The position numbers and the translations under genes were made by a program. Below, piece by piece: positions 828 through 60,800 of a DNA stretch of 64,000 bases. Each line of letters begins with the position of its first letter. Positions within the stretch are counted from its first letter, which is position 1. The stretch comes from Pagrus major (taxonomy: Eukaryota > Chordata > Actinopteri > Spariformes > Sparidae), in assembly GCF_040436345.1 (NCBI RefSeq), contig NC_133221.1, positions 3,008,618-3,072,617 of the forward strand, written 5' to 3'. The notes beneath the pieces are model-generated. The model was not told the origin of the DNA. It was given only the letters and a program-made list of their open reading frames with translations, and did no database searches.

Positions 828-1662
828 CCTGTCCTCCTGGTTGGAGTCTGTGTGGCTCGCGCTGTTTCATCGTTCAAGCCAGAAGACTGTCGATGGCTAA
901 TGCAGAGGTGCGTAGTTAATCGCTCTTTATTGGCCTTCAGGTAGTCGATGATCATGTTTTAGTTTGTATTTCTCTCCTCTATTATTATATTATTCTTCTC
1001 TGCGTACATGCTCTCACATGTTCCATATTGATTTTGTATCTCTGTTTTCTTCCACCGTCTCCTCCATCAGCGCAACTGCATTCGTCTTGGTGGGAACCTG
1101 GCCTCAATCCACAGCTTCAGTGATGACTCCTTCATTAGGGGACTGATTAGAAGAGCCTGTGGCTCTGATGTGCGTACCTGGATTGGGCTGTTTGATGCAA
1201 TTCAGGTGAGTCCTTTTTACACTTGTAGACTACAGACAAATCTGTAACCTGCAATCAATGCAGCTGTTCAGCAATCAGCTTTCTCTTCCAGGAGGGAATG
1301 TGGCTGTGGACTGATGGGTCGAGGGTCGTCTTCACTCGCTGGGCTCGCAGGGAGCCCAACAACTCCGGTGGAAAAGAACACTGTGTCGAGATCAACTTCA
1401 GAGGTACGAATATTATTTCCAAACTTCCTAATGGTATTTTTTATTGAGAAGAAACATGGATAAAAATTGTGTTCATGTTTTTCTTTATTTGTCTGCAGAA
1501 CAAGCATTATATTTAAATGCACTCTGATCAGTTCGACAAGTTATTAACTGAAAAGACGTTTGTGCTCTTGTACTCAGCGACTCTTTTCCTTTTACAGGGG
1601 GCAATTGGAACGATAGACCATGTAAGGATGTGTTGCCTTCTGTTTGTGTGAGGAGACACTGA
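828..1662 (+). CDS. CTL-A: single-domain soluble C-type lectin (partial, 5' exons off the left edge)
   Basis: Four exons are in the window: 828-907, 1071-1205, 1292-1403 and 1598-1662 (stop TGA at 1660-1662). All have AG/GT borders and phases that join. They encode one complete CTLD: the opening CPPGWSLCGSRCF, the RNCIRLGGNLASIHS helix region, WIGL, a sugar-binding loop with EPN, and WND before the last cysteine pair. EPN/WND is the calcium-dependent mannose-type combination in this family. The protein would be secreted, because its twin CTL-B has a signal peptide; the corresponding first exons here must lie left of position 1. It resembles ladderlectin/nattectin-type fish lectins. It differs from CTL-B almost only in the sugar-binding loops. 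A polyadenylation signal aataaa is at 1984-1989. Confidence 0.87.
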
Positions 1663-1983
1663 TGCCTCCATCCTCCATCTGCCCTCATGTGTACCGAGAT
1701 GATGCCACTTCCACCACGACGACGTTACTTTGTCTTTGATGTTACACTTAAATAGTAGCAAACTTTCTCTGATGATTCACTTTTCATTTAATGTTTCAAA
1801 TCAAAATACCACCAGATCAGTAAATGGCAGCATAGGAAATTGCCTCACTAAACTATGATTTAAAAACTTGCTCTCAAGTGAGCGGGACAAAATGATTTTT
1901 CTTGTGATTTTTCTCATTTACTGTCATATATTCACTATCTTTAATCTCAATCGTAATCAATACAAAAAACAAAAATACACTGA

Positions 1984-9422: not shown

Positions 9423-11783
9423 ATGGCATCAGCTCTTCCTCTCATTGTGCTCCTCTGTTTGACCGTTGGACTGTTGAACGTAAGTGATGATGCATCTTGC
9501 AAGAGTTTTTAAATCATTTGTTTTATTCATAAGACCTACATTAAACCCTTTCTACTTCTCTGACATTATTATTTCATCCTCAGCAGTATGAAATTCTCAC
9601 TTTATGTCCCTTCTTCACAATAATAATCAGTCTTCTCCGTCTACCTCTACTTCTTAATTTAACTACAACAACTACCTTCCAAGCTGATTTAATGAATGTC
9701 TTGTTCATGTTCACAGGTGTCCACTGCTAAAGGTAGGTAGCTGCAACCTTCAACTGTGTCCAGTGGCAGAAGTTCATCCAGAACACATTACATCATCTGG
9801 TTTGCTCGAGTCATTACACAGAGCAGTTCACCAACACACCACCACCGACTCTGATCAATGCACAAAATGCTGTTGTCACTCTGTGATGGAGCGATAAAAT
9901 TACTCAATGTCATCAGACTGTTTATATGAACCTCTGACACAAATTATTTCACGTCAGCCCAAGTGATTACAGCAGCTTTCAAGTTATTCTGATGTTGTGG
10001 GAGGGTGTTAAAGTTTATTTCTCTTAAAGGAGAGACACTACAGGAGAAGCCATCATATATTCATACATTAATCCATAACATGTCTTCTTTCAGACTCAAG
10101 AAAACAACTAAAATACACATTTATGTGTCTATTTTAGTCCAGATTTCTGTTTTAGACATTTAAATGCAAATGATTGCTTGTTTAATAGATAGTTCCTCAT
10201 TGGCTATATAATTTCAGAAAACTTGTAATACAAAAAAATAAGTTTTATGGTGATATTTATTAGTTAAACAATTCCACCCATTTACCCAAAGTGTCATTAT
10301 TTATTTCTGAAGTTGTACAATAGTTTTATTATTTGCATATTTAAGTCTACAATTTCTGAAAACTCTGAAATAATTGACTTAAAGGTGCAATATGTAAGAA
10401 TTGTTCACCTGTTTAATTTATACTCAAAACAAATACAGGCAGCATATAACCAGAGTTACTGCTAACTGCTGCTAACTGTATTCTGTTACATGCATGATTG
10501 TAGCTACTGTTACCGTGTTAGCTAAGTTAGCCGTGAAGCTAGCCAGACAACCGGGGGAATGTTGGTGTTTACACTGCTTGCACAGGAGCTTCAGATTGCT
10601 GGGAGAAAGAGGTTTTCAGGCCCAGTGCTAGCTGCTTTGCATGCTAACTTCTGTAGATCTGTCTAACAGAATACGTAGACATAGTTGACATAACGTCAAC
10701 ATTATTTCACTTTCTCTTAATAACTTTAGTTAATGTTTGAATGGTTTAAAACAAAAATTCTGACATATTTCAATGTTAATGTTAGTAATCAACTGTGGAA
10801 GTTTCATGGTGATGTCTATCAGTTAAATCATTCACGTATTCACCTCTCGTGTCTTGCCAACCCCAGTGAATATGATGTAACACTTCTGACTCAGATTAGA
10901 GACTCATCCTGTTATATTAGTCTGTCTAACATGAAAACTGTGTTGCAGCCTGTCCTCCTGGTTGGAGTCTGTGTGGCTCGCGCTGTTTCATCGTTCAAGC
11001 CAGAAGACTGACGATGGCTGATGCAGAGGTGCGTAGTTAATCGCTCTTTATTGGCCTTCAGGTAGTCGATGATCATGTTTTAGTTTGTATTTCTCTCCTC
11101 TATTATTATATTATTCTTCTCTGCGTACATGCTCTCACATGTTCCATATTGATTTTGTATCTCTGTTTTCTTCCACCGTCTCCTCCATCAGCGCAACTGC
11201 ATTCGTCTTGGTGGGAACCTGGCCTCAATCCACAGCTTCAGTGATGACTCCTTCATTAGGGGACTGATTAGAAGAGCCTGTGGCTCTGATGTGCGTACCT
11301 GGATTGGGCTGTTTGATGCAATTCAGGTGAGTCCTTTTTACACTTGTAGACTACAGACAAATCTGTAACCTGCAATCAATGCAGCTGTTCAGCAATCAGC
11401 TTTCTCTTCCAGGAGGGAATGTGGCTGTGGACTGATGGGTCGAGGGTCGTCTTCACTCGCTGGCATTCCAAGGAGCCCAACAACTCCGGTGGAAAAGAAC
11501 ACTGTGTCGAGATCAACTTCAGAGGTACGAATATTATTTCTAAACTTCCTAATGGTATTTTTTATTGAGAAGAAACATGGATAAAAATTGTGTTCATGTT
11601 TTTCTTTATTTGTCTGCAGAACAAGCATTATATTTAAATGCACTCTGATCAGTTCGACAAGTTATTAACTGAAAAGACGTTTGTGCTCTTGTACTCAGCG
11701 ACTCTTTTCCTTTTACAGGGGACTACTGGAATGATGTACCATGTAGCCAGAGGTGGCCTTCTGTTTGTGTGAGGAGACGTTGA
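9423..11783 (+). CDS. CTL-B: secreted single-domain C-type lectin, complete
   Basis: Coding exons are 9423-9479, 9717-9732, 10949-11028, 11192-11326, 11413-11524 and 11719-11783 (154 aa). The start ATG follows an acceptor (ctag|ag) downstream of the non-coding first exon. The N-terminus MASALPLIVLLCLTVGLLN is a typical signal peptide, and VSTAK follows before the CTLD. The domain runs CPPGWSLCGSRCF, GGNLASIHS, WIGLFDAIQ, WLWTDGS, EPNNSGGKEHC, WND, and ends SVCVRRR. EPN and WND predict calcium-dependent mannose-type binding. The fold is that of soluble fish lectins of the ladderlectin/nattectin group. The upstream TATA box and downstream aataaa (12090) complete the unit. Compared with CTL-A, flanking introns are almost identical while residues before EPN and around WND differ sharply. 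Confidence 0.9.
10383..10775. repeat. TTAA-flanked MITE, copy in CTL-B intron
   Basis: This is the direct counterpart of 262-654 within the duplicated block, with the same ends and TTAA borders. It lies in the intron between exons 9717-9732 and 10949-11028. Confidence 0.6.
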
Positions 11784-14060
11784 TGCCTCCATCCTCCATC
11801 TGCCCTCATGTGTACCGAGATGATGCCACTTCCACCACGACGTTACTTTGTCTTTGATGTTTACTGGACTTTCTCTGATGATTCACTTTTCATTTAATGT
11901 TTCAAATCAAAATACCACCAGATCAGTAAATGGCAGCATAGGAAATTGCCTCACTAAACTATGATTTAAAAACTTGCTCTCAAGTGAGCGGGACAAAATG
12001 ATTTTTCTTGTGATTTTTCTCATTTACTGTCATATATTCACTATCTTTAATCTCAATCGTAATCAATACAAAAAACAAAAATACACTGAAATAAAAATAA
12101 TCTTTAAGCATAATGTGTTTCTGTAATGTTGTTTGTGTGTGTGTGTGTTTGTGGAAGACTTGTATTTGGTGACCAGACTGTCACACTTACTGTCAGAGAG
12201 GTGAAACTATCAGACACACTATGACAGACAAAACTCACAGCAGAGATGTAAAAAGTATTTTTAACTTACAGCCCCCCTCCATTGTATTTTGATATTTTTA
12301 TGATATTTCTGAGTCCTTTCTTGGCAGTGTTGATGAGGCAAATATTTTCAGACAAATCACATAATTTTGTGCTCAGAGTCACTAAATTTAAGCTGTTGCT
12401 AATATGGAATAATATATTCAGCAGATAAGTTGTCTAGTGGCAGTAAATGTACAGTACAGGTTACAGTTTGACCATGAATAAACTCTGCAGCTCCTCAATA
12501 CACAAGAAGAACTTCAGTTTGAGTGACAGCGAGCACTATCCCTGCTAATACTCATGCTGCTTGTCCATGCCAATATCGATGCTGTTGCTAATCCATGCTA
12601 GTGATGTTGATGTAGCTATAACGGCAGTCTGGTTATGATGGTGATAACTATTTATGACTGCTAACCACGTATTCTCTGTTTGAGGAAGAACGTCGACCTT
12701 TAGACAGGAATAAAAACTGACTGGAGGGGGCTTAAAGTGAAAGTATGAATACCACACTGTGAGTATATTCAACTACAAGTAAAAGTACTGCATCCAAAAC
12801 GTACTGTTTACAGTATTATCATTAAAATCCACTTCAGCTGTTACCATTCCTGGAAATGGATGTAATATTATCTTAAAACGTCTGTCCCCGTCTTAAAAAC
12901 TTTGACATCACAAGCTTTTATTCACAACTCTGAAGTATTTTCTCTAAATAAGTTAATTTCATACACACAATGATTCTGTATGAATGAGGGCCTAAGGCAG
13001 CGCAGTGCAAATTAATAATCCACCCACACACACGTAACAGTTTATAAACCTGTCCTTTGAGAACCACATATTTCTGAAAAAGTCAGAAAAACAGCCTGTT
13101 TTCAGTTTGTGATGGTGATTCCAGCTCATCTAGAGGGTTTTTAAAGAGGTTTTTAGCTCCATAAGAGGAGAATTTTCTGGACTCATCAAGGATCACTTCA
13201 ACCCTCAGTTTATCACAAACATACAAAATCAGCACATCTGTAGATGCATGGTTTTTACTGGACAGGAAGGGGATGTAATATTGTAACCTGAGAAGTAACT
13301 CCAGTCATCCAGGTCCAGGTATTTGCCTCTGAGATGTGATGGCATAGAAATATTAAGTAGTACAGTGACTTGTTTGTCTTTAACCAGACTGTTGGCATAG
13401 CTTTCATTATGAACCGATATGAACCAGTAGAGCTACTCAATGCTATCAGATCAGGGTCATCAGATTAGCGTTGGTACCTTCGAATGTTCAAGGAAAAGTC
13501 AACAGAAAAAGTACCTGCACATGCTTCCAAGTAATCCAGGAAGTCAACAGAAAAACTGCCAAGTAGGTTGGCACATGCAAAGAATTTGCTGTGGTGTTTT
13601 GGTTCGTAGCGTTCACAATAAATATGGTAACAGAAGGGAGGAAAAAGTACAGCAAAAGACGAGGAACAGAAAATACATTTTAGATTTAAAAAAAGACAGA
13701 CTGGTTCACTGTATATACACTGGAGAGAGACATGGAGAGACGTGCACATGTCCTGACAAAGTCTACAAACACTCCTTTAAGGAAACTCGTGTTTAAAAGA
13801 AGCCATGAATCATTTTATGTTATCGGGTTGAAACAACAGGAAGCGGTCCGCAGTGAGTGATGCACTTTGTAAATGTCCTTCATGAGAATGTGGTAAAGAT
13901 CTTCCAAGAAGTCTTTACTTCCTTTTGATAATCTTGGACCATAAAGTAAATCATTACCTTCCTCACACTCTGCTACACCCAATAAGTCAGACAACCTGAC
14001 CTCAATCGTGTGTTTACATAAAAACAATGTACTGGATAGGAGCCAATACAGTACTTGACC
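11784..14060. other. Intergenic stretch CTL-B to RBL2
   Basis: It contains the CTL-B 3' UTR with aataaa at 12090-12095. It then runs colinear with 1663-4190 of the first block except for the Harbinger-like insertion and a divergent patch at about 12440-12890. No additional gene is supported. Confidence 0.5.
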
Positions 14061-27447: not shown

Positions 27448-28933
27448 ATGGAAAAACTTTTTCTGAGCATCATCGCTGCATCAGGCAAGTCTTATCTATA
27501 ATTTCCTCTTTCCTAATATTATTGAATGTGGTATTGTTGCTTGATGTACAGTCTAACTCAATGAAAAATCAGGCTTTGTCATTGTTACGGTTCAGCTGTG
27601 GGCTTCAGAGCCGTCGAGTCGTGCAGAAAATATCTTTCTTCTGGTTACTAATTAAGCCTCATTAACCTTCTTTAATACGTACAAAAATAAAGAAAAGTTC
27701 TGAACAAACAGCTCACAGTTTTACATACGATCTGAGCCGGAACCAGAAGGTCATTAAGTCATCTTTGGTCCAAATGTAACCAGTATGCATGTCTGTCACT
27801 ACAGGGCTGAGTGCCGTCTCATCACATGTCCCTCGTCAGTACCATTTTGTTTCTGACCTGAAGACCATGACTGAAGCTCAGAGGTACTGCAGAGAGAAAT
27901 ACACTGACCTGGCAACTATAGACAACATGGAGGACATGAGGATCCTGATCGACATGGCAGATAAAAGCTCAGTGGTGGACTCTGAATACAGCCACGTGAG
28001 TTCACTCTACTCTCTTTCTCATTTCAAAGCCATTTTTGACCATTAAGTGTGATGGATGGTTTTAAAGTTCTGCATTACTATTTAACTATTCAAACTTTGC
28101 TTTCAGTTTGCCTGGATCGGGCTGTACGATGACCTGGACACCTGGAGGTGGTCACTGTCAGACACCAGGATCTACAAAGACGAGGAGACTGAGTTCAGAA
28201 GATGGTCGCCTGAAGAACCGAACAACGACCACAGTGGGGAACACTGCGCAGAGATGTATGATAACGGACTATGGAGCGATGCCGGATGTCACAAAGCTTT
28301 TAAGGCGGTCTGCATGGATGTCAGAGGTGAGGATGTGAAGTAGTGAAGTTGCAAATGTACCAGTTTGGTGTTTGACCTCTCTGCCTCTTCGTCTTCGGTT
28401 ACATGAATGTGATTTAAAGCAGCTCGGTGTGAAGTCTGCCTTCACTTCGATGCGATAATCCGGGCCATGAAGCGAATTATAGAGTCTGATGACACACACA
28501 CCTCGACGATTAACAGGTTTATCCCCTGTGACTGTCTCGGTCCGAAGCGGGTCAAGAACAGGAGGCGAAACATCTCTGATGTGCATTTGTGGACGAATGT
28601 GGTGACGGACAGCTCCATAGTGATTTCACATTGTAACTTAGATTTTGATATTTTATTGGCGTACTTCCTTACATCTCTGGGGATTTATAGTGCCGTGGAT
28701 GCTGCCACAGACACAGCATGGGTGGCTGACTGTAGGTCAGGGTTTGTACCTCTGCACGTCTGTTTTCAGGGCTGAATGTGACGTTTGTCCTCACCAAAGA
28801 AAACATGAACTGGACTGAGGCCCAGAGCTACTGCAGACAACACCACACAGACCTGGCCAGTGTGAGGAACACGGCAGACAACCAGAAGGTAAAGGACGTA
28901 TCGAGGGACCGACACTGCAAAAATCAAACATAA
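27448..28933 (+). CDS. Gene D: secreted C-type lectin, CTLD1 complete, CTLD2 truncated
   Basis: Exons are 27448-27484, 27805-27995, 28107-28326 and 28770-28933. They join in phase to 203 codons, using a GC donor (tcag|gcaagt) after exon 1. The signal peptide is [12 protein letters not shown] plus GLSAVSS. CTLD1 has [40 protein letters not shown] and WSD (a WND variant). The start matches genes E, F and G. CTLD2 begins normally ([24 protein letters not shown]) but leaves homology after QKVKDV and stops 11 codons later at 28931-28933. The WIGLF half, the sugar loop and the KDEL tail exons are missing. It may be a secreted single-CTLD protein with a stub or a decaying gene. The exon 2 end ([10 protein letters not shown]) differs from E-G and defines a D-like subfamily. 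Confidence 0.7.
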
Positions 28934-31576: not shown

Positions 31577-34500
31577 CATTTTATTTAAAGGTGCCTTTCA
31601 TAGCACTCATGGACACCTTACAAAACACACATAACATAACAACAGTACATCAGACAATATAATCAGGTAACATTGGTGTGGAAGTTAAATAAATAAATAT
31701 GAAATGCAATTACATAGTGCAATAATACAGTAGTACAATAATACATATATATAGTGTCGGAAGTGTGAATGTCTGGTGGGAGAGAGTTCAAAGGCTGGAG
31801 GCAGATGGGCTGAAAGCTCTTGACCCCGTGGTGGTTGGGTTGGCAGATGGGGCAAAGAGCTGGATGGTAGAAGAGGGTCGGAGAGTGCGGGATGGTGTGT
31901 GGATTAGAGGTCGACCGATAGTGGATTTTTAAAGGCTGATATAATAACGATAGTTTGGAGCAGGAAATGTTATTATATGTGATTAATATATAATTAATAT
32001 ATAATTAATATTATATAATATTAATATATTTAATTTAAACTTGTATGTATTCGATATCTATTAAAATCTACATGGATGATTTAAGTTGCACTTTAATGGG
32101 GGGAAATTAAGTGATCCTTCACATTTTTGTGAGTGATGGCACTGTGTGCCATAAAAAATAATAATCACAAAATAACACTGGTTAAACAAGGCGTATAGTG
32201 AAGGGATTTGAACTGTGATGTTTCTCATCCTCCCATAGTCAGGCTGTAACCACTAACCAGCTATAGGGATGGTATGTTAGGATTTTATCTTTATCTTATC
32301 CAAACTCTTAACAGTCCTGTTCTTTATCAATACTAAAGAATGGTTTGTTTTTTTAATTGTCTTTTTTTAAAAGAATAAATTCAGAACAGGAATTCATTTA
32401 TATTTCAAATATAACTACATATTGTTTCCACTGCAGCAACAGTAAAGTTTACAACAGCAAAGTCACTATATAAACTCAGTAATATCTGGAAACAAATCGA
32501 GGGGGGGGGCTGGTTTGTCTCAGCCAGCAGCTAAAGTTTACAAGAAATTGCCAAATTTTAAGATTGATGGCAAACTAAGCTGAACAGACTACACACAGAC
32601 AGCTTTCATTTGAGCGTGTTCTTAACAAGCTGTTAATTGTTGTCTTAACGAGCACTGCGGTCATGGAGGCTAAAACATGCCGGTGAAAATGTCGCTGTTT
32701 ATGCTGAAATATGATGCACGTTTGTGCTTGTTGAACAAGTGGTACTTATTGCCTCCGCCAAGGAGGTTATGTTTGTTGACTTTCAACCCGTGAAGGTTTT
32801 ATTGCACTTCCAATAACACGTGTCGTCGTCTCGAGTTATCTTCTTCACTTCTCTCCTCTCTCTGCCGCTGCATACGCCCGTCTCTCTCTCTCCCCTGCTC
32901 TCTCTGTGTGAAGAGCAGCCCCGCCCCTCAGGGATCAGAGCGACAGGGAGACAGAGAGCAGCGCAGGGAAGAAGCAGTTTATGGCGCTGTGGAAAAAACT
33001 GCAGCCATCGGCCACTATCGGAGCCAAGTTCCGCCGATTCCCATAGTTTGTAAAACGTCCTGTCGGCGCGGATTAATCGGCCAAACCGATTAATCGGTCG
33101 ACCTCTAGTGTGGATATGAATAAGTTCAGAGAGTACACCTGAACACACAGAAATGTGATGTTTCAACAATCTCACATTGTTGTTCTGTTGTTCCTACGAA
33201 TTATATTAGTAAATTTACTCCAATCAAACTCCTGTTCCTTTCTTTTGAGGATGAGATGACAATATAAATATTTTTTTTCTGTGTAAATATGTTCAAAAAT
33301 CAGTTTTACTGAAAGTTACTTTCAGTCACCTGGTGACGTCACAATATGCAAATTAGATGATTCAATTTACTCCCATCACAAACTTTAGGTCATTATGAAT
33401 ATTTTTCTCATTTACACTATGGATTTATCTCTCACCACTTCCAAGCTACAGCCTTTTGAAATCTTAAAATCCAAACGGAATATTTTCCTAAATAAACTCT
33501 GGCGCCTGGAGGGTTGGGACAACACAGTTTATACTGTTTTACTTTGTTTATATGTGGCGGACCCTGCCACCTCTCTAGCTTCAAACAGTGTTCTGGGACC
33601 TTATTCTCCTCTGAGAACAGCTTGTTTATTCACTGATGGAAAAGATAAATATTTCTGAGTTTGTATTATTACCTCATTAATATTGTAAATATAAAAATTC
33701 TGAGTTTGAATTTCTTCTCCAAAACTACGTAGTGCCCCTTTAATGATCAGCCTCTGTGCATGAGACGCATGCTCTACCACTTGAGTTACTGGGACGTCCC
33801 AGAGAAACACTGGTGTAATATATAACTATGTATTTTATTGTATTTCAGGTTGTCGTGTGTCTTTAGACTAAAATCTTCACCTGAATAACAATTAAATGTA
33901 CTGCAGTAAAAGTCTGATATTACAGTGAAATGTAATGGAGTAGAAATATAAAGTTACATAAACAGAAATACTGCAAATTGTCCTTAAAGTGTCAACAGAC
34001 ACCCCCAACCCTGTCACTAGTTTAAGTACAGTACTTAAGTAAATGACTTTGTTACATTCCACAGCTGATTTTACTGACAGAGACAACGACACACCTGAAT
34101 ACACTGAAATGCAACGTGACAAAGTCCAGATGATTCATAGAAGTCATGTTTCACCCAAATGTCACCAGTATGCATGTCTGTCTCTACAGGGCTGAGTGCT
34201 GTCTCATCACATGTCCGTCGTCAGTACCATTTTGTTTCTGACTGGAAGAACATGACTGAAGCTCAGAGGTACTGCAGAGAGAAATACACTGACCTGGCAA
34301 CTATAGACAACATGGAGGAAATGAGGATCCTGATCGACATGGCAACTAAAAGCAAAGTGCCCAGAGTGAGTTCACTGATGTCTTTCTTTAGTCTCAAAGC
34401 CATTTTTGACAAACATGTAAATGACACGCAGGTTGAAAGTTTTGCACTTCCACATTGGTGTAAAGTCAGTAGATACATTTTGAAGTAACATTTTGAGGTA

Positions 34501-37500
34501 CTGTACTTGTACTTGAGTATTTCCATTTAATGCCACTCTGTACTTCTACTCCACTACTTCTCAGAAGGACATTGTAAGCAGCACTTTAATCTGGTGTCTG
34601 ATTAAGGTGCAGCTTGAATCTAAACTACTCCTACCTCTACCTCTAGAAAATGCCTCATATTTATTTGTTTACAATATGAAATGTACTCATAGACTATATG
34701 TCTACATATGTCTATATATGTATACAACGCTCTTTCCAAAGAAGTTGGGACGTTGTGTAAAATACAAATTAAACAGAATCGGGGAATGTGATAATTTGCT
34801 GATCCTTTTTGACATAAACTCAATTTAAAACAGTACAAAGACAATTTATTTATTTCATGTTCAACTTCACTGATTTGTGTAAATATATGTCTATTCTGAA
34901 GCGACGTGTTTCAAACAAATTGTGACTCGGCAACAAAAGCCTGAAAGTTGTTGTGTTGGAAGCTTCCACAGGTGAACAGGTTCATCGGTAACAGGTGATC
35001 GTATCATAATCGGGTATGAAAGGGGCGTCCTCCAAAGGCTCAGTCGTCCACAAGCAAGGATGGGGCGAGGTCGTCAAACACATGATTGTATAAATGATTT
35101 GACTACATGAGCTCAGGAGCAGCAGGACTGAAGTCAGTTCTTTGCAAATGTTTGCATTGTGTCTTTTTTCTACACAGCGTCCCAACTCTTTTAGAATCGG
35201 GCTGTGAAGTGTTTTTCATATAAAACTCCCTCGTTGTGTTTCACCAGACTGAGTGTCCCTGTTGAGCCCCGTCACTGACAGTATATTGAAAGAGTATTAC
35301 CAGGGGATAATATGGCCAGTATGAACAGGAAGAATGATCACAGCATGCAAATCCTGTTTCAGTGTACATATGGGCACCTAGATACAGTTTTAAGAAAGAC
35401 TTAAGGGTTTCGCAAATTGTTGTGAGAGTTGAGCCAAAGTCATTGTAAAGTAGAGGCAGTATCAAGACTGAAAATGTTACGTGAAAACATTTCCTTTAGC
35501 AGCTAAAAGCTAGAGCAGGGTCGAATGCTTTATATTGAAATTTAGCCTAAAGAAAGATATATTAAAATATTGCTTTCAGTATTTCTGGTTCGGGCTGTAT
35601 GAAGACGTGAACAGCTGGAGGTGGTCACTGTCAGACACCAGTTTCTACAAAGACGGGGAGACTGAGTTCAGACAGTGGGGGACTGGACAACCAGACAACC
35701 AAAAGAGTATAGAGCACTGCACAGTGATGTATGATGATGGACTATGGGGCGACTACCCTTGTGAAAGAAGCTTTTGGCCGGTCTGCATGGATGTCAGAGG
35801 TGAGAATATTCAGTGAAGTTTAAAACACCAGTTCAGGTTCTTGAGCTCTCCCTCATTATTTGGGCCGATACAGGATCAGTCAGTCAAACTTTAGTTACAG
35901 CACCTTCCATCAAAGTTAGTACAATTCAAAGAGCTTTACAGACGACTTACAAGCCAATAAGGCAGCAATTAATATTGATGATTTGACAGCGATGCAGGTG
36001 AGAATGAGAAAAAGAAGCTTGTCAGTGATGAATGACTTGTTTGGGTGGAGCAGATAGAAGAGCATTGTAATAGTCCATCCTGCTGGATTTAAAAACATGC
36101 TGCAGTCTCTGAGTCACTCAGACGGAGACGTGGCCACAATTTAGCTGTTTCAGATAATAAAAGGCAGATCTGGCTCCACACCCCACATGAAAGCAACTGA
36201 GTACATGTACTCTATTACTACGCTACTTTATTTACTGTGTAACTTCTGGATCTCAGAGGGAAAATGATGTATTTTTGAACTGACTTCATTTACTCAACAG
36301 CTGTAGTTACTTGTTACTGTTCAGATTAATATAAACATTAAAAAACAGATGAGAAGCTTATGAAATACAACACATTGTTATATATTGAACTAGTTCCCAA
36401 CCGTCTTGTTTCTTTCTGCTGGTGACCTCTGACACAAAGCTCTGTCTACTGGAGCTGCTTGTCATGTTTCACATGTTCATGTGTTGTTAGTTCCACCAAA
36501 GAAACATTTCCCCACTAAACTTCTCACATGGTGAAGTCCAAAGAAGTCAGATGATCCAATGTTTTATGTGAAAGCAAATATTGGAGGAAAGTTAAAGAAA
36601 AGAAAAACTGAAGACAGATTTGTGCATCAGAACTTTTTTCTTTTCTTTCCTCTCCCATCAACCAGTGGGTTTATAATGCTGTGAATACTGCCACAGACAC
36701 GGCATGGATGGTAAACTGTATGTTATAGTACCTCTGCACAGCACTGTGCTCTGTTTTCAGGGCTGAATGTGACGTTTGTCCTCATCAATACTCACATGAA
36801 CTGGACTGAGGCCCAGAGCTACTGCAGAGATCACCACACAGACCTGGCCAGTGTGAGGAACACAGCAGAGAACCAGAAGGTAAAGGACGTGGTACCTTCA
36901 GGACAAACAGCCTGGATCGGCCTTTTCAGAGACTCCTGGAAGTGGTCGGATGGAAGTAACTCCTCATTTAGGTACTGGGATCAAGGTGAACCTAATAACA
37001 ATGGTGGGAAAGATGCTTGTGCGGTGGCAGACTTGGACAGAGATGGAAAATGGTGGGACACTCGCTGTGACTGGAAGAGATGGTTCGTTTGCTACAGCCC
37101 ACGTGAGTGTTAACTCTTTATTCAACTTGTATTTATTTTCAGATTTTGGTTTAATTTAGCATCAAATGTCCTCAATGATAATGTAACAAAAACAACACAA
37201 ACCATAAAGTTATGGACAGAAAATAAAATGTAAACACTCCTGATGTTTATCATTGACATGAAATCATCTGTAAAGTTAGCAAACAGATGCCACAGATGGA
37301 GGACAGAGCCACATGTTCCCTGTCATTGTTCAGACTGATGAGTCAATATTTATATGAACATATTTTTTCACAGTCCCTACGACTACAAGGCAAGTGATCA
37401 AAGTGCGTCTGGAGAGAAAGGACTCCTCTCTGGATCTCAACGACCCTGCTGTGTTGGAACAAATGTTGAAGGAGGTAAATCATGTTGGACCTTTCTAATT

Positions 37501-38458: not shown

Positions 38459-38784
38459 TTAATGTTGAGTTTGTGTGAGTCTTTCCTCAAAGTCCTCATG
38501 TAATGTGTCAGAATAGACCTGCAACATGTGGATGAACTGATCAGTCACATGAACTATTTTCATCATCAGTTAATCCTTTCAGTTATTTGTCAACTAAACG
38601 TACCAAATATTCTCTGGTTCAAGCTTCTTCAATGTGAGGATTTGATGTTTTCTTCTCATATATGATCATAAACTTAATATCTTTGTGTTTCAGACTGTTG
38701 GTCGATTATAACAAGACATTTGAAGTGATCTCATTGGGCTGTGGGAACTTATAACAGACTTTATTCACTCTTTTCTGACATAGA

Positions 38785-45282: not shown

Positions 45283-48200
45283 TTAAAGCTCGTCCTTCTT
45301 CTTCTTCTTTGTCTCCTCCTCCTTGTGGAAGACCTTTCCATCCGACTGCTTCCTCCAGCTCAGTTTGACGTCTCCATCCACCCCCTGGTCCTTCAGCCTC
45401 TGTTTGAACTGATAAAACCTCCTCAGCATCATCACTCACATAGAGATATTACATTCTGCACTGTTCTTTATATTTTCCTCTATTTCAGGAGCGCTCTGCA
45501 TCACATTTATATATTCACATGTTTTGTTCCCTAAGATGGCGTCGCCCTGTTGGCCTGCTGTCCTTTCTGACTTTCTCCTCCTCTTTCTTCTGTTGTAAAG
45601 GCTCTGGCTTTTCTAAAACTGATAGTAAAGTTTGTGCTGAGCGTCGACTCTTAACGAGTCACAGTTGTGCCTCAGTCAGGCCTGCAGAGCGGCACGACTA
45701 CGCTCTTTAATCCTGCACATATGTACGTGCACAGCTTCCTACACAATGCTCAGGTCATGTCATGTTTATCTGTTTCCTACCTCTTCACACTGTTTCTTGT
45801 TCTGCTGAGTTTTCCCTCGGGGGATCAACAAAGTCTGATTTTATTTGAATTTGTTCTGTTTGTGTATAAAATTAGAAAGGTCCAACATGATTTACCTCCT
45901 TCAACATTTGTTCCAACACAGCAGGGTCGTTGAGATCCAGAGAGGAGTCCTTTCTCTCCAGACGCACTTTGATCACTTGCCTTGTAGTCGTAGGGACTGT
46001 GAAAAAATATGTTCATATAAATATTGACTCATCAGTCTGAACAATGACAGGGAACATGTGGCTCTGTCCTCCATCTGTGGCATCTGTTTGCTAACTTTAC
46101 AGACAATTTCATGTCAATGATAAACATCAGGAGTGTTTACATTTTATTTTCTGTCCATAACTTTATGTTTTGTGTTGTTTTTGTTACATTATCATTGAGG
46201 ACATTTGATGCTAAATTAAACCAAAATCCAAATATAAATACAAGTTGAATAAAGAGTTAACACTCACGTGGGCTGTAGCAAACGAACGGTCTCTTCTGGA
46301 CACAGGGAGCATCCCACCATTTTCCATATATGCCCAAGTCTGCCACCGCACAAGCATCTATCCCACCATAGTTATTAGGTTGACCTTGATCCCAGTACCT
46401 AAATGAGGAGTTACTTCCATCCGACCACTTCCAGGAGTCTCTGAAAAGGCCGATCCAGGCTAGTTGTCCTGGAGGTACCAAGTCCTTTACCTCCTGGTTC
46501 TCTGCTGTGTTCCTCACACTGGCCAGGTCTGTGTGGTGATCTCTGCAGTAGCTCTGGGCCTCAGTCCAGGTCATGGAAGTCTCGATGAGGACAAACGTCA
46601 CATTCAGCCCTGAAAACAGAGCACAGTGCTGTGCAGAGGTACTATAACATACAGTTTACCATCCATGCCGTGTCTGTGGCAGTATTCACAGCATTATAAA
46701 TCCACTGAATTAATGACTTTGTAAAATAAAAATGGAAGACATGATCATCTTAATAAATGTTACTGAGTATTTCTTCAGTCTCTCCCCATTAATAATCACA
46801 TCCTTAAAATCTACATCTAATAGATTGACACATTATTTTTTCTACATGTGAATATTTCCTCAGATTTCTGAAACACAAACATACGGGCCCCTCTGAAGGG
46901 TCACCAGATACATCTGAGGGCTCGTCAGATGGTTGATGGGAGAGGAAAGAAAAGAAAAAAGTTCTGATGCACAAATCTGTCTTCAGTTTTTCTTTTCTTT
47001 AACTTTCCTCCAATATTTGCTTTCACATAAAACATTGGATCATCTGACTTCTTTGGACTTCACCATGTGAGAAGTTTAGTGGGGAAATGTTTCTTTGGTG
47101 GAACTAACAACACATGAACATGTGAAACATGACAAGAAGCTCCAGTAGACAGAGCTTTGTGTCAGAGGTCACCAGCACAAAGAAACAAGAAGGTTGGGAA
47201 CTAGTTCAATATATAACAATGTGTTGTATTTTATAAGCTTCTCATATGTTCTTTAATGTTTATATTCATCTGAACAGTAACAAGTAACTACAGCTGTTGA
47301 GTAAATGAAGTCAATTCAAGAATACATCATTTTCCCTCTGAGATCCAGTGGAGTTATAAAGTTACACAGTAAATAAAGTAGCGTAGTAATAGAGTACATG
47401 TACTCAGTTGCTTTCATGTGGGGTGTGGAGCCAGATCTGCCTTTTATTATCTGAAACAGCTAAATTGCGGCCACGTCTCCGTCTGAGTGACTCAGAGACT
47501 GCAGCATGTTTTTAAATCCAGCAGGATGGACTATTACAATGCTCTTCTATCTGCTCCACCCAAACAAGTCATTCATCACTGACAAGCTTCTTTTTCTCAT
47601 TCTCACCTGCATCGCTGTCAAATCATCAATATTAATTGCTGCCTTATTGGCTTGTAAGTCGTCTGTAAAGCTCTTTGAATTGTACTAACTTTGATGGAAG
47701 GTGCTGTAAATAAAGTTTGACTGACTGATCCTGTATCGGCCCAAATAATGAGGGAGAGCTCAAGAACCTGAACTGGTGTTTTAAACTTCACTGAATGTTC
47801 TCACCTCTGACATCCATGCAGACCGAATGAAGGCGAGTTTTACAATCAACGTCGTTCCATCGTCCACCATCATCATAAATCGTTGTGCAGTGCTCTCTAC
47901 TGTTTTGGTTGTCTGGTTGTCCAGTCCACCACTGTCTGAACTCAGTCTCGCCGTCTTTGTAGAAACTGGTGTCTGACAGTGACCACCTCCAGCTGTTCAC
48001 GTCATCATACAGCCCGATCCAGACACTCTGAAAGCAATATTTTAATATATCTTTCTTTAGCCTCACATTTATTACACGGCAACACAATATACACTCAAAA
48101 GTTAATCTGAGGCTTCAGCAGTCTGAGTGACACAGATCCAGTTCATATCCTCCAAAGTGACAGGCTTTCTAATACAACATTCCCTCCTTTTGTTTCCATC

Positions 48201-50258
48201 CACTGCAGCTCAACAGGGACACTCAGTCTGGTGAAACACAACGAGGGAGTTTTATATTAAAAGCACTTCACAGCCCGATTCTAAAAGAGTTGGGACGCTG
48301 TGGAGAATAAAGACACAATGCAAACATTTCCAAAGAACTGACTTCAGTCCTGCTGCTCCTGAGCTCATGTAGTAAAATCATTTATACAATCATGTGTTTG
48401 ACGACCTCGCCCCATCCTTGCTTGTGAACGACTGAGCCTTTGGAGGACGCCCCTTTCATACCCGATTATGATACGATCACCTGTTACCGATGAACCTGTT
48501 CACCTGTGGAAGCTTCCAACACAACAACTTTCAGGCTTTTGTTGCCCCGTCACAATTTGTTTGAAACGCGTCGCTTCAGAATAGACATATATTTACACAA
48601 ATCAGTGAAGCTGAACATGAAATAAATAAATTGTCTTTGTACTGTTTTAAATTGAGTTTATGTCAAAAAGGATCAGCAAATTATCACATTCCCCGATTCT
48701 GTTTAATTTGTATTTTACACAACGTCCCAACTTCTTTGGAATGAGCGTTGTATACATATATAGACATATGTAGACATATAGTCTATGAGTACATTTCATA
48801 TTGTAAACAAATAAATATGAGGCATTTTCTAGAGGTAGAGGTAGGAGTAGTTTAGATTCAAGCTGCACCTTAATCAGACACAAGATTAAAGTGCTGCTTA
48901 CAATGTCCTTCTGAGAAGTAGTGGAGTAGAAGTACAGAGTGGCATTAAATGGAAATACCCAAGTACAAGTACAGTACCTCAAAATGTTACTTCAAAATGT
49001 ATCTACTGACTTTACACCAATGTGGAAGTGCAAAACTTTCAACCTGCGTGTCATTTACATGTTTGTCAAAAATGGCTTTGAGACTAAAGAAAGACATCAG
49101 TGAACTCACATTGGACACTTTGCTTTTATCTACGGTGTCGATCAGGATCCTCACGTCCTCCATGTTGTCTATAGTTGCCAGGTCAGTGTATTTCTCTCTG
49201 CAGTACCTCTGAGCTTCAGTCATGTTCTTCCAGTCAGAAACAAAATGGTACTGACGAGGGACATGTGATGAGACAGCACTCAGCCCTGTAGAGACAGACA
49301 TGCATACTGGTGACATTTGGGTGAAACATGACTTCTATGAATCATCTGGACTTTGTCACGTTGCATTTCAGTGTATTCAGGTGTGTCGTTGTCTCTGTCA
49401 GTAAAATCAGCTGTGGAATGTAACAAAGTCATTTACTTAAGTACTGTACTTAAACTAGTGACAGGGTTGGGGGTGTCTGTTGACACTTTAAGGACAATTT
49501 GGAGTATTTCTGTTTATGTAACTTTATATTTCTACTCCATTACATTTCACTGTAATATCAGACTTTTACTGCAGCACATTTAATTGTTATTCAGGTGAAG
49601 ATTTTAGTCTAAAGACACATGACAACCTGAAATACAATAAAATACATAGTTATATATTACACCAGTGTTTCTCTGGGACGTCCCAGTAACTCAAGTGGTA
49701 GAGCATGCGTCTCATGCACAGAGGCTGATCATTAAAGGGGCACTACGTAGTTTTGGAGAAGAAATTCAAACTCAGAATTTTAATATTTAAAATACATACT
49801 AATGAACTGATTGAATCATCCCTAATTGCATTTTTAAGAATAAATGAGAGCTGTGATTGGTTCCTGCTTTATTCAGACAGATCCCAGTTTATTGTTTTTT
49901 GTTTTAAAAGTCAGTTCAGCATCGAGAAATATTGAGGAACTCAGTGATGGTTTGTAAACGACACACACCAAAGCTGGACTGGAAAAAATAGAAAGCTAAA
50001 GATTGTAAGAGCTGCAGCGTGACCACAAAATATTTCAGGGTAAAAGAAATCAAATTCAGAGGATTCAGTTTGCATTAGTCTGTGCGTCAACCAAAGGAGA
50101 AGGATTATATAAATGTGGGACATCATTTTTAATTTAGACTTCTGATGACAGTTTTGTCCCCACAAGGTTTTGTGCTGTAATAAAAGAATATAAACATCTA
50201 TAAAACAAATAAACTACTGACCTGATGCAGCCATGATGAGCAGCAGGACTGCGTCCAT
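45283..50258 (-). CDS. Gene F: two-CTLD C-type lectin with signal peptide and C-terminal KDEL
   Basis: Minus-strand exons in transcript order: 50258-50222, 49285-49110, 48027-47805, 46609-46268, 45996-45896 and 45408-45283 (334 aa). Junctions are all GT-AG and in phase. Start MDAVLLLIMAAS, with the signal peptide ending GLSAVSS. CTLD1 has [25 protein letters not shown] and WND (galactose-type pair); one extra residue in YDDGGRWND makes exon 3 223 nt. CTLD2 has [31 protein letters not shown], then QPN where E and G have EPN, and WWDAPC. The tail is as in E with five lysines before KDEL. It lies tail to tail with E. CTLD2 sugar preference is uncertain because of QPN. ER-lumenal location is inferred from signal peptide plus KDEL. 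Confidence 0.87.
47480..47735 (+). repeat. CR1/Rex-like LINE tail in gene F intron 3
   Basis: Same insertion as 35878-36125 and 57075-57330. It ends in aataaagtttgactgactga. Confidence 0.6.
48269..48752. repeat. Non-autonomous DNA transposon in gene F intron 2
   Basis: Inverted counterpart of 34723-35206, with the same gttgggacg-containing termini. Confidence 0.6.
49736..49795 (+). repeat. piggyBac-derived element, left-end remnant upstream of F exon 2
   Basis: It begins aggggcactacgtagttttg after TTAA (49732-49735). After about 55 bases it jumps to sequence that lies beyond the full element in the G unit (gattgaatcatcc), so the interior and right end are deleted here. Confidence 0.65.
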
Positions 50259-51385: not shown

Positions 51386-51387
51386 AT

Positions 51388-51640: not shown

Positions 51641-51689
51641 TCTTCTGCAGAAGATGGCGAGTGACTCTACTGTCCTCACATTGGCCTTG

Positions 51690-52721: not shown

Positions 52722-52732
52722 TCCCGTCCCTC

Positions 52733-54888: not shown

Positions 54889-57800
54889 TTAAAGCTCGTC
54901 CTTCTTCTTCTTCTTCTTCTTTGTCTCCTCCTCCTTGTGGAAGACCTTTCCATCCGACTGCTTCCTCCAGCTCAGTTTGACGTCTCCATCCACCCCCTGG
55001 TCCTTCAGCCTCTGTTTGAACTGATAAAACCTCCTCAGCATCATCACTCACATAGAGATATTACATTCTGCACTGTTCTTTATATTTTCCTCTATTTCAG
55101 GAGCGCTCTGCATCACATTTATATATTCACATGTTTTGTTCCCTAAGATGGCGTCGCCCTGTTGGCCTGCTGTCCTTTCTGACTTTCTCCTCCTCTTTCT
55201 TCTGTTGTAAAGGCTCTGGCTTTTCTAAAACTGATAGTAAAGTTTGTGCTGAGCGTCGACTCTTAACGAGTCACAGTTGTGCCTCAGTCAGGCCTGCAGA
55301 GCGGCACGACTACGCTCTTTAATCCTGCACATATGTACGTGCACAGCTTCCTACACAATGCTCAGGTCATGTCATGTTTATCTGTTTCCTACCTCTTCAC
55401 ACTGTTTCTTGTTCTGCTGAGTTTTCCCTCGGGGGATCAACAAAGTCTGATTTTATTTGAATTTGTTCTGTTTGTGTATAAAATTAGAAAGGTCCAACAT
55501 GATTTACCTCCTTCAACATTTGTTCCAACACAGCAGGGTCGTTGAGATCCAGAGAGGAGTCCTTTCTCTCCAGACGCACTTTGATCACTTGCCTTGTAGT
55601 CGTAGCTGAAAAAAAATATGTTCATATAAATATTGACTCATCAGTCTGAACAGTGACAGGGAACATGTGGCTCTGTCCTCCATCTGTGGCATCTGTTTGC
55701 TAACTTTACAGATAATTTCATGTCAATGATAAACATCAGGAGTGTTTACATTTTATTTTCTGTCCATAACTTTATGTTTTGTGTTGTTTTTGTTACATTA
55801 TCATTGAGGACATTTGATGCTAAATTAAACCAAAATCTGAAAATAAATACAAGTTGAATCAAAAGTTAACACTCACGTGGGCTGTAGCAAACGAACGGTA
55901 TCTTCAGGTCACAGGGATCGTCCCACCATTTTCCATCTCTGCCCAATTCTACCAGCACACAAGCCTGATTCCCACCATTTGGTTCACCTTGAGCCCAGTA
56001 CCTAAATGAGGAGTTTCTTCCATCCGACCACTTCCAGGAGTCTCTGAAAAGGCCGATCCAGGCTGGTTGTTCTGAAGGTACCAAGTCCTTTAACTCCTGG
56101 TGCTCTGCTGTGTTCCTCACACTGGCCAGGTCTGTGTGGTGATCTCTGCAGTAGCTCTGGGCCTCAGTCCAGGTCATGGAAGTATTGATGAGGACAAACG
56201 TCACCTTCAGCCCTGAAAACAGAGCACAGTGCTGTGCAGAGGTACTATAACATACAGTTTACCATACTATACTGTACATACTGTGCATTATAAATCCACT
56301 GAATTAATGACTTTGTAAAATAAAAATGGAAGACATGATCATCTTAATAAATGTTACTGAGTATTTCTTCAGTCTCTCCCCATTAATAATCACATCCTTA
56401 AAATCTACATCTAATAGATTGACACATTATTTTTTCTACATGTGAATATTTCCTCAGATTTCTGAAACACAAACATACGGGCCCCTCTGAAGGGTCACCA
56501 GATACATCTGAGGGCTCGTCAGATGGTTGATGGGAGAGGAAAGAAAAGAAAAAAGTTCTGATGCACAAATCTGTCTTCAGTTTTTCTTTCCTTTAACTTT
56601 CCTCCAATATTTGCTTTCACATAAAACATTGGATCATCTGACTTCTTTGGACTTCACCATGTGAGAAGTTTAGTGGGGAAATGTTTCTTTGGTGGAACTA
56701 ACAACACATGAACATGTGAAACATGACAAGAAGCTCCAGTAGACAGAGCTTTGTGTCAGAGGTCACCAGCAGAAAGAAACAAGAAGGTTGGGAACTAGTT
56801 CAATATATAACAATGTGTTGTATTTTATAAGCTTCTCATATGTTCTTTAATGTTTATATTCATCTGAACAGTAACAAGTAACTACAGCTGTTGAGTAAAT
56901 GAAGTCAATTCAAGAATACATCATTTTCCCTCTGAGATCCAGTGGAGTTATAAAGTTACACAGTAAATAAAGTAGCGTAGTAATAGAGTACATGCACTCA
57001 GTTGCTTTCATGTGGGGTGTGGAGCCAGATCTGCCTTTTATTATCTGAAACAGCTAAATTGCGGCCACGTCTCCGTCTGAGTGACTCAGAGACTGCAGCA
57101 TGTTTTTAAATCCAGCAGGATGGACTATTACAATGCTCTTCTATCTGCTCCACCCAAACAAGTCATTCATCACTGACAAGCTTCTTTTTCTCATTCTCAC
57201 CTGCATCGCTGTCAAATCATCAATATTAATTGCTGCCTTATTGGCTTGTAAGTCGTCTGTAAAGCTCTTTGAATTGTACTAACTTTGATGGAAGGTGCTG
57301 TAAATAAAGTTTGACTGACTGATCCTGTATCGGCCCAAATAATGAGGGAGAGCTCAAGAACCTGAACTGGTGTGTTTTAAACTTCACTGAATGTTCTCAC
57401 CTCTGACATCCATGCAGACCGACCAAAAGCGATTTTTACAATCAACGTCGTTCCATCGTCCATCACCAAACATCAGTGTGCAGTGCTCTCTACTTTTATA
57501 GTTGTCTGGTTGTCCAGTCCACCAATGTCTGAACTCAGTCTCCCCGTCTTTGTAGAAACTGGTGTCTGACAGTGACCACCTCCAGCTGTTCACGTCATCA
57601 TACAGCCCGATCCAGACACCCTGAAAGCAATATTTTAATAAATCTTTCTTTAGCCTCACATTTATTACACGGCAACACAATATACACTCAAAAGTTAATC
57701 TGAGGCTTCAGCAGTCTGAGTGACACAGATCCAGTTCATATCCTCCAAAGTGACAGGCTTTCTAATACAACATTCCCTCCTTTTGTTTCCATCCACTGCA

Positions 57801-60800
57801 GCTCAACAGGGACACTCAGTCTGGTGAAACACAACGAGGGAGTTTTATATGAAAAACACTTCACAGCCCGATTCTAAAAGAGTTGGGACGCTGTGTAGAA
57901 TAAAGACACAATGCAAACATTTGCAAAGAACTGACTTCAGTCCTGCTGCTCCTGAGCTCATGTAGTAAAATCATTTATACAATCATGTGTTTGACGACCT
58001 CGCCCCATCCTTGCTTGTGAACGACTGAGCCTTTGGAGGACGCCCCTTTCATACCCGATTATGATACGATCACCTGTTACCGATGAACCTGTTCACCTGT
58101 GGAAGCTTCCAACACGACAACTTTCAGGCTTTTGTTGCCGAGTCACAATTTGTTTGAAACGCGTCGCTTCAGAATAGACATATATTTACACAAATCAGTG
58201 AAGCTGAACATGAAATAAATAAATTGTCTTTGTACTGTTTTGAATTGAGTTTATGTCAAAAAGGATCAGCAAATTATCACATTCCCCGATTCTGTTTAAT
58301 TTGTATTTTACACAACGTCCCAACTTCTTTGGAATGAGCGTTGTATACATATATAGACATATGTAGACATATAGTCTATGAGTACATTTCATATTGTAAA
58401 CAAATAAATATGAGGCATTTTCTAGAGGTAGAGGTAGGAGTAGTTTAGATTCAAGCTGCACCTTAATCAGACACAAGATTAAAGTGCTGCTTACAATGTC
58501 CTTCTGAGAAGTAGTGGAGTAGAAGTACAGAGTGGCAGTAAATGGAAATACCCAAGTACAAGTACAGTACCTCAAAATGTTACTTCAAAATGTATCTACT
58601 GACTTTACACCAATGTGGAAGTGCAAAACTTTCAACCTGCGTGTCATTTACATGTTTGTCAAAAATGGCTTTGAGACTAAAGAAAGACATCAGTGAACTC
58701 ACTGATGTCTCACTGGACACTTTGCTTTTATCTACGGTGTCGATCAGGATCCTCGCGTCCTCCATGTTGTCTATAGTTGCCAGGTCAGTGTATTTCTCTC
58801 TGCAGTACCTCTGAGCTTCAGTCATGTTCTTCCGGTCAGAAACAAAATGGTACTGACGAGGGACATGTGATGAGACAGCACTCAGCCCTGTAGAGACAGA
58901 CATGCATACTGGTGACATTTGGGTGAAACATGACTTCTATGAATCATCTGGACTTTGTCACGTTGCATTTCAGTGTATTCAGGTGTGTCGTTGTCTCTGT
59001 CAGTAAAATCAGCTGTGGAATGTAACAAAGTCATTTACTTAAGTACTGTACTTAAACTAGTGACAGGGTTGGGGGTGTCTGTTGACACTTTAAGGACAAT
59101 TTGCAGTATTTCTGTTTATGTAACTTTATATTTCTACTCCATTACATTTCACTGTAATATCAGACTTTTACTGCAGCACATTTAATTGTTATTCAGATGA
59201 AGATTTTAGTCTAAAGACACATGACAACCTGAAATACAATAAAATACATAGTTATATATTACACCAGTGGTTCTCTGGGACGTCCCAGTAACTCAAGTGG
59301 TAGAGCATGCGTCTCATGCACAGAGGCTGATCATTAAAGGGGCACTACGTAGTTTTGGAGAAGAAATTCAAACTCAGAATTTTAATATTTACAATATTAA
59401 TGAGGTAATAATACAAACTCAGAAATATTTATCTTTTCCATCAGTGAATAAACAAGCTGGTCTCAGAGGAGAATAAGGTCCCAGAACACTGTTTGAAGCT
59501 AGAGAGGTGGCAGGGTCCGCCACATATAAACAAAGTAAAACAGTATAAACTGTGTTGTCCCAACCCTTTTAAGATTTCAAAAGGCTGTAGCTTGGAAGTG
59601 GTGAGAGATAAATCCATAGTGTAAATGAGAAAAATATTCATAATGACCTAAAGTTTGTGATGGGAGTAAATTTAATCATCTAATTTGCATATTGTGATGT
59701 CACCAGGTGACTGAAAGTAACTTTCAATAAAACAGATTTTTGAACATATTTACACAGAAAAAAAATATTTTTATTTTCATCTCATCCTCAAAATAAAGGA
59801 ACAGGAGTTTGATTGGAGTAAATTTACTAATATAATTCGTATGTCACCAGGTAAAATTCAGTAAAACAGAATTCTGAACATATTTACACAGTAGATTTGT
59901 TTTCACTTCATTTCATTTTTTCATAGATTTTTTTCATCCTCTCATCCTCAGAGTAAATGAACAGGAATCTGATTGGAGTAAATTTCCTAATCTAACTTGT
60001 AAAAAGAAAAGAAAACTCTCGCAGTGATCAGCGTGTGTTGCTTGTGTGACAGTGTGCGCAGCTGCAGCATCGTCATCAGAGGGCAAATCGTCCCCTTCTG
60101 AATCGCGATCAGCAAAGATCTGTGCAAGCACCTCATCCGCACTGTAAAGTCTTTTGGGCATTTTGTTTTTTATTACAAAAATCGCTGTCTGTCTCTCGAT
60201 CTGTCCAGCACACTTCTGCCACGGCTCCGCGGCTCTCTCCTCTCCCACTCTGCCGTTTAGCCGCTGCCGCTCCGACAGCCGGTGTCGGGTTTCAAACTTT
60301 TTTTTCTCAGGTATTTTGCATAGAAACACACCCACAACTGACGTCAGGATTGAAGCTGAATCTAGTGGCCATCTAGTGGTAGCAAGCAAGTAACAGCACA
60401 AGGCAGTAGATTTAAAGATATGGGCTGTTTTAATGAGCAATGTTGCCTGTCGCAATAATGCGACTTTGTTTATTCAGTCATGAAAACAAAGTTTGTTTAT
60501 TTAGTTTGTTTAGGCAGAAAAAAATCAGCCAATGAAGATCTTTCTCTGCTCATTAACATTTAATCACTAAAACTACAGAATGCTCCTTTAATGGATTCTG
60601 ATACTTTAAGTCCATTGATCTGATAATACTTCCTATTACTAAAGATCCCGTCCCAGAGTTTTGGCTCGTCGGTGTATAAACTGTGTGTGCGTATAAATAT
60701 ATATACTGTATATATATATTAATGAGTGCAGGTACAGAGTCTGACTACATTTTGATTGAATCATCCCTAATTGCATTTTTAAGAATAAATGAGAGCTGTG

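Follow-up and report, generated by a model that had tools for sequence, protein, structure and literature searches.

C-type lectin genes in the window

The window analyzed here, a 64,000-nucleotide stretch of DNA from the sparid fish Pagrus major, carries two distantly related sets of C-type lectin genes (Table 1). The first set is a tandem duplicate pair, CTL-A (exons 828-1662) and CTL-B (exons 9423-11783). The six exons of CTL-B, with AG and GT at the internal splice sites throughout, rebuild 154 of 154 residues of P0001, "galactose-specific lectin nattectin-like [Pagrus major]". CTL-A shows the same four lectin-domain exons, all open and with intact splice sites; its two signal-peptide exons would fall before the window start, and the gene is read from the lectin domain on. 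An ATG at 810 was considered as the CTL-A start and rejected as belonging to a spurious frame (with a stop in CTL-B), because the splice acceptor ahead of 828 puts both genes in the lectin-domain frame and the CTL-B exons rebuild P0001.

Both domains match Pfam PF00059 (Lectin_C), with 81.7 bits for CTL-A and 79.7 for CTL-B against a gathering cut-off of 22.6. The residues of EPN, Glu101 and WND, and the cysteines, are unchanged between the two genes, and an alignment of 29 proteins shows little or no variation at the P, the later E and W-N-D. We take these residues to have the calcium- and sugar-binding role known from mannose-binding protein, and EPN to be the mannose-type motif, QPD being the presumed rule for galactose. 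QPD, which the database name "galactose-specific lectin" would call for, is absent from CTL-A and CTL-B. Judged by their sequences, the two are predicted to be secreted single-domain fish C-type lectins of the ladderlectin, nattectin-like and antifreeze-protein-like group. The introns of CTL-B lie upstream of C1, after WIGL, and between C2 and C3 (our own assignment of C1-C3), which agrees with the layout of the antifreeze-protein-like/ladderlectin type as described in the available part of PMC514892.

A fold search ranked the herring type II antifreeze protein 2py2 first, which confirms a C-type lectin domain (CTLD) and nothing more. By sequence, 2py2 also leads the PDB proteins that naturally have a single domain, and is outscored by 9qy1, a one-domain fragment of Endo180. 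In the AlphaFold model of P0001 (mean pLDDT 73.2), confidence drops under 50 at residues 96-117, where block 1 of Table 1 lies, and averages 66-69 at residues 121-140, a range that takes in part of block 2. The model is too uncertain at the loops, and the variable residues were therefore not placed with it. Searches of viral contig and phage databases found no relative.

The second set, missed in the original prediction, consists of three copies encoding two CTLDs each, C on the plus strand and D and E on the minus strand, at 33195-59841. Their aligned pieces are 94.5-98% identical, and their lectin exons are strongly diverged. The closest three annotated proteins among the matches listed are Pagrus major entries that carry the name "C-type mannose receptor 2-like". 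Copies C, D and E all fall short of identity with the annotated proteins among those matches (best 84%), which may reflect another haplotype or assembly, or copies annotated otherwise. P0032 and P0033, two of the annotated Pagrus relatives, have a hydrophobic stretch at the C-terminal end; C, D and E are read here over exons e2-e4.

Several smaller features accompany this set. A more distant relative of the dual-CTLD exons, at 75-86% identity, lies upstream of it at 27756-28381. At 35264-35549, copy C shows no homology to the intron sequence, shorter there, that D and E have in common, and in its CTLD1 (35580-35799) WGD takes the place of the WND of D and E, so that the calcium site may be altered. 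In copy E, nine extra bases at the end of e2 (58703-58711, minus strand) lead to a second splice-donor-like GTGAG. A tRNA match in Rfam (64.7 bits) lies at 42960-43041, at the edge of the copy D block. Two open frames at 41600-42731 on the minus strand give, from their translation, the impression of a retrotransposon reverse transcriptase, and an UnaL2 LINE 3' element (Rfam) is found at 51387-51440, also on the minus strand. A tandem array with a 28-29-base period occupies about 1 kb at 51687-52737 and is open in all three plus-strand frames.

Table 1. Lectin exons and stretches of concentrated CTL-A/CTL-B divergence in the window
Feature	Position	Strand	Basis and remarks
CTL-A first lectin-domain exon (CPPGW...NAE)	828..907	+	Reading frame, codon comparison, splice sites; S22T and N25D against CTL-B
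CTL-A exon RNCIRLGG...FDAIQ	1071..1205	+	Alignment, splice sites; no difference from CTL-B
CTL-A exon carrying the EPN motif	1292..1403	+	Alignment, codon comparison, splice sites
Divergence block 1, codons 90-92, ARR (A) against HSK (B)	1343..1351	+	Alignment, codon comparison
CTL-A last exon, WND motif and stop	1598..1662	+	Codon comparison, splice sites
Divergence block 2, codons 111-122, GNWNDRPCKDVL (A) against DYWNDVPCSQRW (B)	1600..1635	+	Codon comparison
Third divergence cluster, noncoding, 3' of the stop; 3 indels and 2 substitutions	1716..1761	+	
CTL-B exon 1, signal peptide	9423..9479	+	
CTL-B exon 2 (VSTAK)	9717..9732	+	
CTL-B exon 3	10949..11028	+	Splice sites
CTL-B exon 4	11192..11326	+	Splice sites
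CTL-B exon 5 (EPN)	11413..11524	+	Splice sites
CTL-B exon 6 (WND, stop)	11719..11783	+	Splice sites
Copy C exon e2, first part of CTLD1	34190..34365	+	
Copy C exon e3, loop half of CTLD1, QPD	35580..35799	+	
Copy C exon e4, CTLD2, EPN	36761..37102	+	
Copy D exon e4, CTLD2, QPN	46268..46609	-	
Copy D exon e3	47805..48027	-	
Copy D exon e2	49110..49285	-	
Copy E exon e4, CTLD2, EPN, two residues fewer	55877..56212	-	
Copy E exon e3	57401..57620	-	
Copy E exon e2, nine bases longer at 3' end	58703..58887	-	

Peaks of divergence between CTL-A and CTL-B

The original prediction held that the two genes have all but identical introns, with amino-acid change confined to the sugar-binding loops. A base-level alignment of 1-2344 with 10121-12450, replaced for the coding part by a gap-free codon alignment (the base-level alignment put gaps into the last exon), yields 22 substitutions across 390 coding bases; the noncoding part, about 1938 bases, has 20 substitutions and 5 indels. 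The intron at 1206-1291/11327-11412 is identical, as had been claimed; that at 1404-1597/11525-11718, said to differ by about one base, has a single difference at base 1420; and a further intron at 908-1070 has none. Introns within the lectin domain thus differ at 1 of 443 bases, against 22 of 393 in the coding sequence with the stop codon counted (Fisher p = 9e-7), so that an equal density of differences in introns and exons, which would have spoken against the whole pattern, is not seen.

Most of the coding differences (18 of 22) fall into two blocks, 5 in the first and 13 in the second, in agreement with the counts first reported. In block 1, just before EPN, 5 of 9 bases differ, all of them changing residues, and none of the three residues is shared. 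In block 2, around WND, 13 of 36 bases differ, which the Nei-Gojobori count divides into 11 replacement and 2 silent differences, and 5 of 12 residues are shared. When 47 events were placed uniformly over 2344 bp, none of 5000 simulations matched either of the observed maxima, 7 events within 10 bp and 13 within 40 bp. The pattern of divergence is real and well above chance. Transitions and transversions, at 11/11 in coding and 10/10 in noncoding sequence, are alike and do not discriminate.

Confinement to the sugar-binding loops proved too strong a description. The rest of these exons is not identical, as had been stated: the last codon differs at 1658-1659 (His/Arg). The first domain exon, overlooked at the time, adds two replacements, so that 3 of the 13 amino-acid changes lie outside the two blocks, and EPN, Glu101 and WND themselves do not change. 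A third cluster lies past the stop codon, in noncoding DNA (p = 0.013 in a scan restricted to the 18 noncoding events past base 60), and the first 60 bp of the alignment also hold a dense stretch of differences. The replacements outside the blocks and the cluster at 1716-1761 mean that the patchiness is not purely a matter of the ligand site.

Selection and exchange among the copies

Between CTL-A and CTL-B there are 19 replacement differences over 303 sites and 3 silent differences over 87 sites (dN 0.066, dS 0.035). The dN/dS ratio of this pair alone, 1.9, is above 1 and not significant (N vs S p = 0.43). The replacement rate nevertheless stands far above that of neighboring DNA: 19/303 compares with 1/443 in the introns (p = 3e-7) and with 21/1051 in the distal duplicated flanks (p = 4e-4), and it exceeds that of all local noncoding DNA taken together (p = 1e-7), which bears out the claim that this is not general divergence. 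The same comparison disposes of relaxed constraint or pseudogene decay of one copy, a far-fetched reading even though the signal-peptide exons of CTL-A would lie outside the window and the gene may not be intact there: decay cannot exceed the neutral rate, as the replacements do, the four CTL-A lectin-domain exons are open with intact splice sites, and EPN, Glu101, WND and the cysteines are unchanged.

The columns at which CTL-A and CTL-B differ are also hypervariable in the family. Their mean entropy is 2.26 bits against 1.32 elsewhere in 28 fish lectin homologs (permutation p = 0.0004), a value attained by the true position alone among 130 circular shifts; the alignment used 28 of 30 homologs, leaving out P0024 (divergent end) and P0001 (identical to CTL-B). 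In 14 sparid homologs the values are 1.36 and 0.83 (p = 0.014).

Copies C, D and E repeat the pattern more strongly. Their noncoding divergence is 0.94, 0.96 and 0.73% for C-D, C-E and D-E over about 4790 bases, a count that leaves out 33195-33700, 35264-35549 (no homology in C), 36655-36735 and 38760-38900 (microsatellite), stretches that include divergent DNA adjoining e3 and e4. In the same order of pairs, the pooled exons e2-e4 diverge by 10.6, 11.7 and 7.5% at replacement sites and by 3.0, 2.9 and 2.6% at silent sites, giving dN/dS of 3.5, 4.1 and 2.9 (N vs S p = 0.0042, 0.0019 and 0.055), and replacements exceed noncoding divergence with p = 4e-30, 8e-34 and 7e-21; the three pairwise comparisons are mutually dependent. 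Taken singly, none of the exons shows a significant excess of replacement over silent change (best p = 0.057), and in one of the nine exon-by-pair comparisons, e2 between D and E, there is no replacement excess over noncoding DNA (p = 0.27). Immediately around e2, none of 100 bases is variable on either side. Variable positions number 20 of 72 in the 100 bases upstream of e3 and 11 of 90 upstream of e4, mostly within the omitted stretches, and 6 of 100 downstream of e4.

The columns that vary among C, D and E have an entropy of 1.43 bits against 0.38 in 10 sparid relatives (taken from the best 120 of 2808 homologs), a contrast reached in 0 of 20000 permutations, and the cysteines are kept among the three copies. 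Variable columns also occur in the helical first half of the domain, beyond the surroundings of EPN and WND, and the change therefore reaches past the sugar site to the ligand face and beyond it. Diversifying selection, as first proposed, thus finds support in the pooled dN/dS of this second set and in the hypervariable columns of the first; the A/B pair taken alone does not reach significance.

Further observations concern exchange of DNA between copies. The gene introns of CTL-A and CTL-B (1/443; a comparison that rests on 443 bp) are less diverged than the distal duplicated flanks (21/1051; p = 0.008), as expected if the gene body has been homogenised. Silent differences between CTL-A and CTL-B (3/87) exceed those in introns (1/443; p = 0.015), and all three fall in the last exon; the sequence of that exon thus seems either to predate the introns or to have been imported. 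Set against all local noncoding DNA (20/1938), the silent excess is not significant (p = 0.073). For C, D and E, silent divergence of 2.6-3.0% compares with 0.7-1.0% in noncoding DNA (p = 0.053, 0.055 and 0.028). Two hits in one codon are found in 8 of the 14 differing A/B codons, where uniform placement gives a mean of 1.1 and a maximum of 6 in 20000 trials; given 20 substitutions within 16 loop codons, eight such codons are weakly unusual (p = 0.06).

A PHI-type compatibility test (our own script, applied to protein alignments with gapped columns skipped) finds mosaic relationships among paralogs: in both lectin sets, nearby sites are more compatible than distant ones. No permutation out of 2000 matched the value for six Pagrus dual-domain proteins (three from the window and three annotated), nor that for 14 sparid nattectin-like proteins, CTL-A and CTL-B included; p is 0.010 for nine sparid dual-domain proteins and 0.0215 for nine closer nattectin-like proteins (the dual-domain sets are C, D and E plus three or six homologs). 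Local co-selection could be a partial source of this signal. One example of a mosaic involves two sites. At the first, C and P0032 have MAT, and D, E, P0031 and P0033 have TVD; at the second, C and P0031 have YPCE, and D, E and P0032 have a DCK motif, so that all four combinations occur. Of the locally targeted exchange once proposed for the loops, the exchange is upheld by these mosaic paralogs; its targeting to the loops is not, as homogenised gene bodies together with selection explain the peaks equally well.

Explanations and related systems

Most likely, selection and exchange both contribute. The reading we favor, with a probability of roughly 0.6, is that interlocus gene conversion homogenises the gene bodies, while positive selection keeps, and exchange reshuffles, divergent segments of the ligand face. 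Lectin copies in the cluster would exchange DNA by interlocus gene conversion, leaving introns and framework exons near-identical. Residues flanking EPN and WND would be under diversifying selection between copies, so that converted versions are lost there and divergence persists as peaks; occasionally a stretch of another paralog would be copied in and then kept. The divergence peaks, the excess of replacements, the hypervariable columns and the mosaic paralogs are observed; gene conversion as the process of exchange, selection on ligand recognition, and any change in binding are what we infer. Because EPN, Glu101 and WND are unchanged, CTL-A and CTL-B probably share their basic sugar class (presumably mannose-type, by the EPN rule), with the extended ligand differing. 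Patchy divergence away from the ligand site, at 1716-1761 and in the first 60 bp, is a counterpoint.

An unlikely alternative, though the best placed of those considered, is positive selection on new point mutations after a very recent duplication, without gene conversion. It accommodates a replacement rate far above that of introns and noncoding DNA, and the failure of the A/B silent excess to reach significance against all local noncoding DNA led us to give this alternative more weight and the favored reading less. It does not by itself account for exon silent sites raised above introns in A/B and above noncoding DNA in C, D and E, for double hits in more than half of the differing codons (8/14), or for the mosaic relationships of the paralogs.

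Less likely again is conversion by chance, in which short tracts were copied from diverged paralogs and the loops stand out as the main difference between donor and recipient. PHI-type mosaicism, silent changes limited to a diverged last exon and the noncoding cluster close by are all as such a process would have them, but the pooled C/D/E dN/dS of 2.9-4.1 requires selection at some stage, and both gene sets are hypervariable at the matching columns of their families. Conversion tracts are typically well above 9 bases in length, and block 1, nine bases flanked by identity, would be a very short one.

It is improbable that CTL-A and CTL-B are two haplotypes of one polymorphic locus placed falsely in tandem by the assembly, the loop differences being polymorphism. 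The identity of about 98-99% outside the blocks would suit this, as would the fact that, among 30 proteins, CTL-B has an exact match in an annotated Pagrus major protein and CTL-A has none. Larger insertions, however, distinguish the regions beyond 2344 and 12450; other sparids have many annotated copies, eight Sparus entries listing a contig of the same size (35,997,798); and copy C is opposite in orientation to D and E.

Evolution of this kind is already known, and CTL-A and CTL-B together with C, D and E are a striking and clear new instance of it; a search of titles and abstract openings in the open literature did not find the divergence-peak pattern for sparid lectins. Duplicates shaped by gene conversion and selection show such divergence peaks in exon 5 of the red and green opsins, and there, as here, introns are homogenised and short exon segments with functional differences remain diverged (PMC3924837, as far as its available text goes). 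Low intron divergence and short exon peaks at putative functional sites are found in the lectins too, which differ from the opsin case, described there as two amino-acid sites in one gene pair, in showing several segments, in two gene sets, at columns hypervariable across the family. ASSET, the accelerated segment switch in exons of snake venom proteins, for which the accessible part of PMC2711939 leaves the mechanism open, likewise replaces short exon segments and keeps introns and the cysteines that hold the fold. Low-identity exon segments beside conserved introns and cysteines are present in A/B, and the conserved cysteines also in C, D and E. Unlike the venom proteins of that account, these are lectins of non-venomous fish, with short segments, and the mosaicism of the paralogs points to exchange between copies as one source.

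Among fish lectins, the single-CTLD antifreeze-protein-like (AFPL) lectins of Fugu occur as near-identical tandem copies, which the paper describing them warns may be an assembly artefact, with three introns within the domain at positions that we read as the same (PMC514892, in the part available). CTL-A and CTL-B differ from antifreeze-protein-like lectins in keeping EPN and WND, for which sugar binding is expected, and in the divergence of loops between tandem copies, which that part of the text does not describe for Fugu AFPL. The same source infers rapid evolution for a group of soluble fish dual-CTLD proteins, F1; C, D and E similarly encode two CTLDs, although two of their annotated Pagrus relatives end in the hydrophobic stretch noted above, unlike soluble F1 proteins, and they add to that picture near-identical noncoding DNA beside strongly diverged lectin exons. 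The congerins of the conger eel, fish galectins with accelerated evolution, are also lectin duplicates with selected change in sugar recognition; unlike the C-type CTL-A and CTL-B they have the galectin fold, and the portion of PMC3269628 at hand describes no loop-level peaks beside identical introns.

A more specific and tentative idea, and an unlikely one at present, is that sparids shuffle lectin loops in the germline, with conversion acting both as eraser of differences in gene bodies and as shuffler of ligand-face cassettes of about 10-40 bases, concentrated at the loops. If true, this would provide a repertoire of binding sites on constant scaffolds in at least two lectin gene sets within one 64-kb stretch.

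The case is an unusually clean one, 1 of 443 intron bases differing against 5 of 9 coding bases, with the contrast repeated in a second lectin set of the same 64-kb window. This makes the locus well suited to testing how gene conversion and selection jointly generate diversity in innate recognition, and to looking for venom-type segment switching in ordinary fish lectins with a visible source of segments. Since red seabream is a farmed fish, disease traits could also be set against lectin copy number and loop variants.
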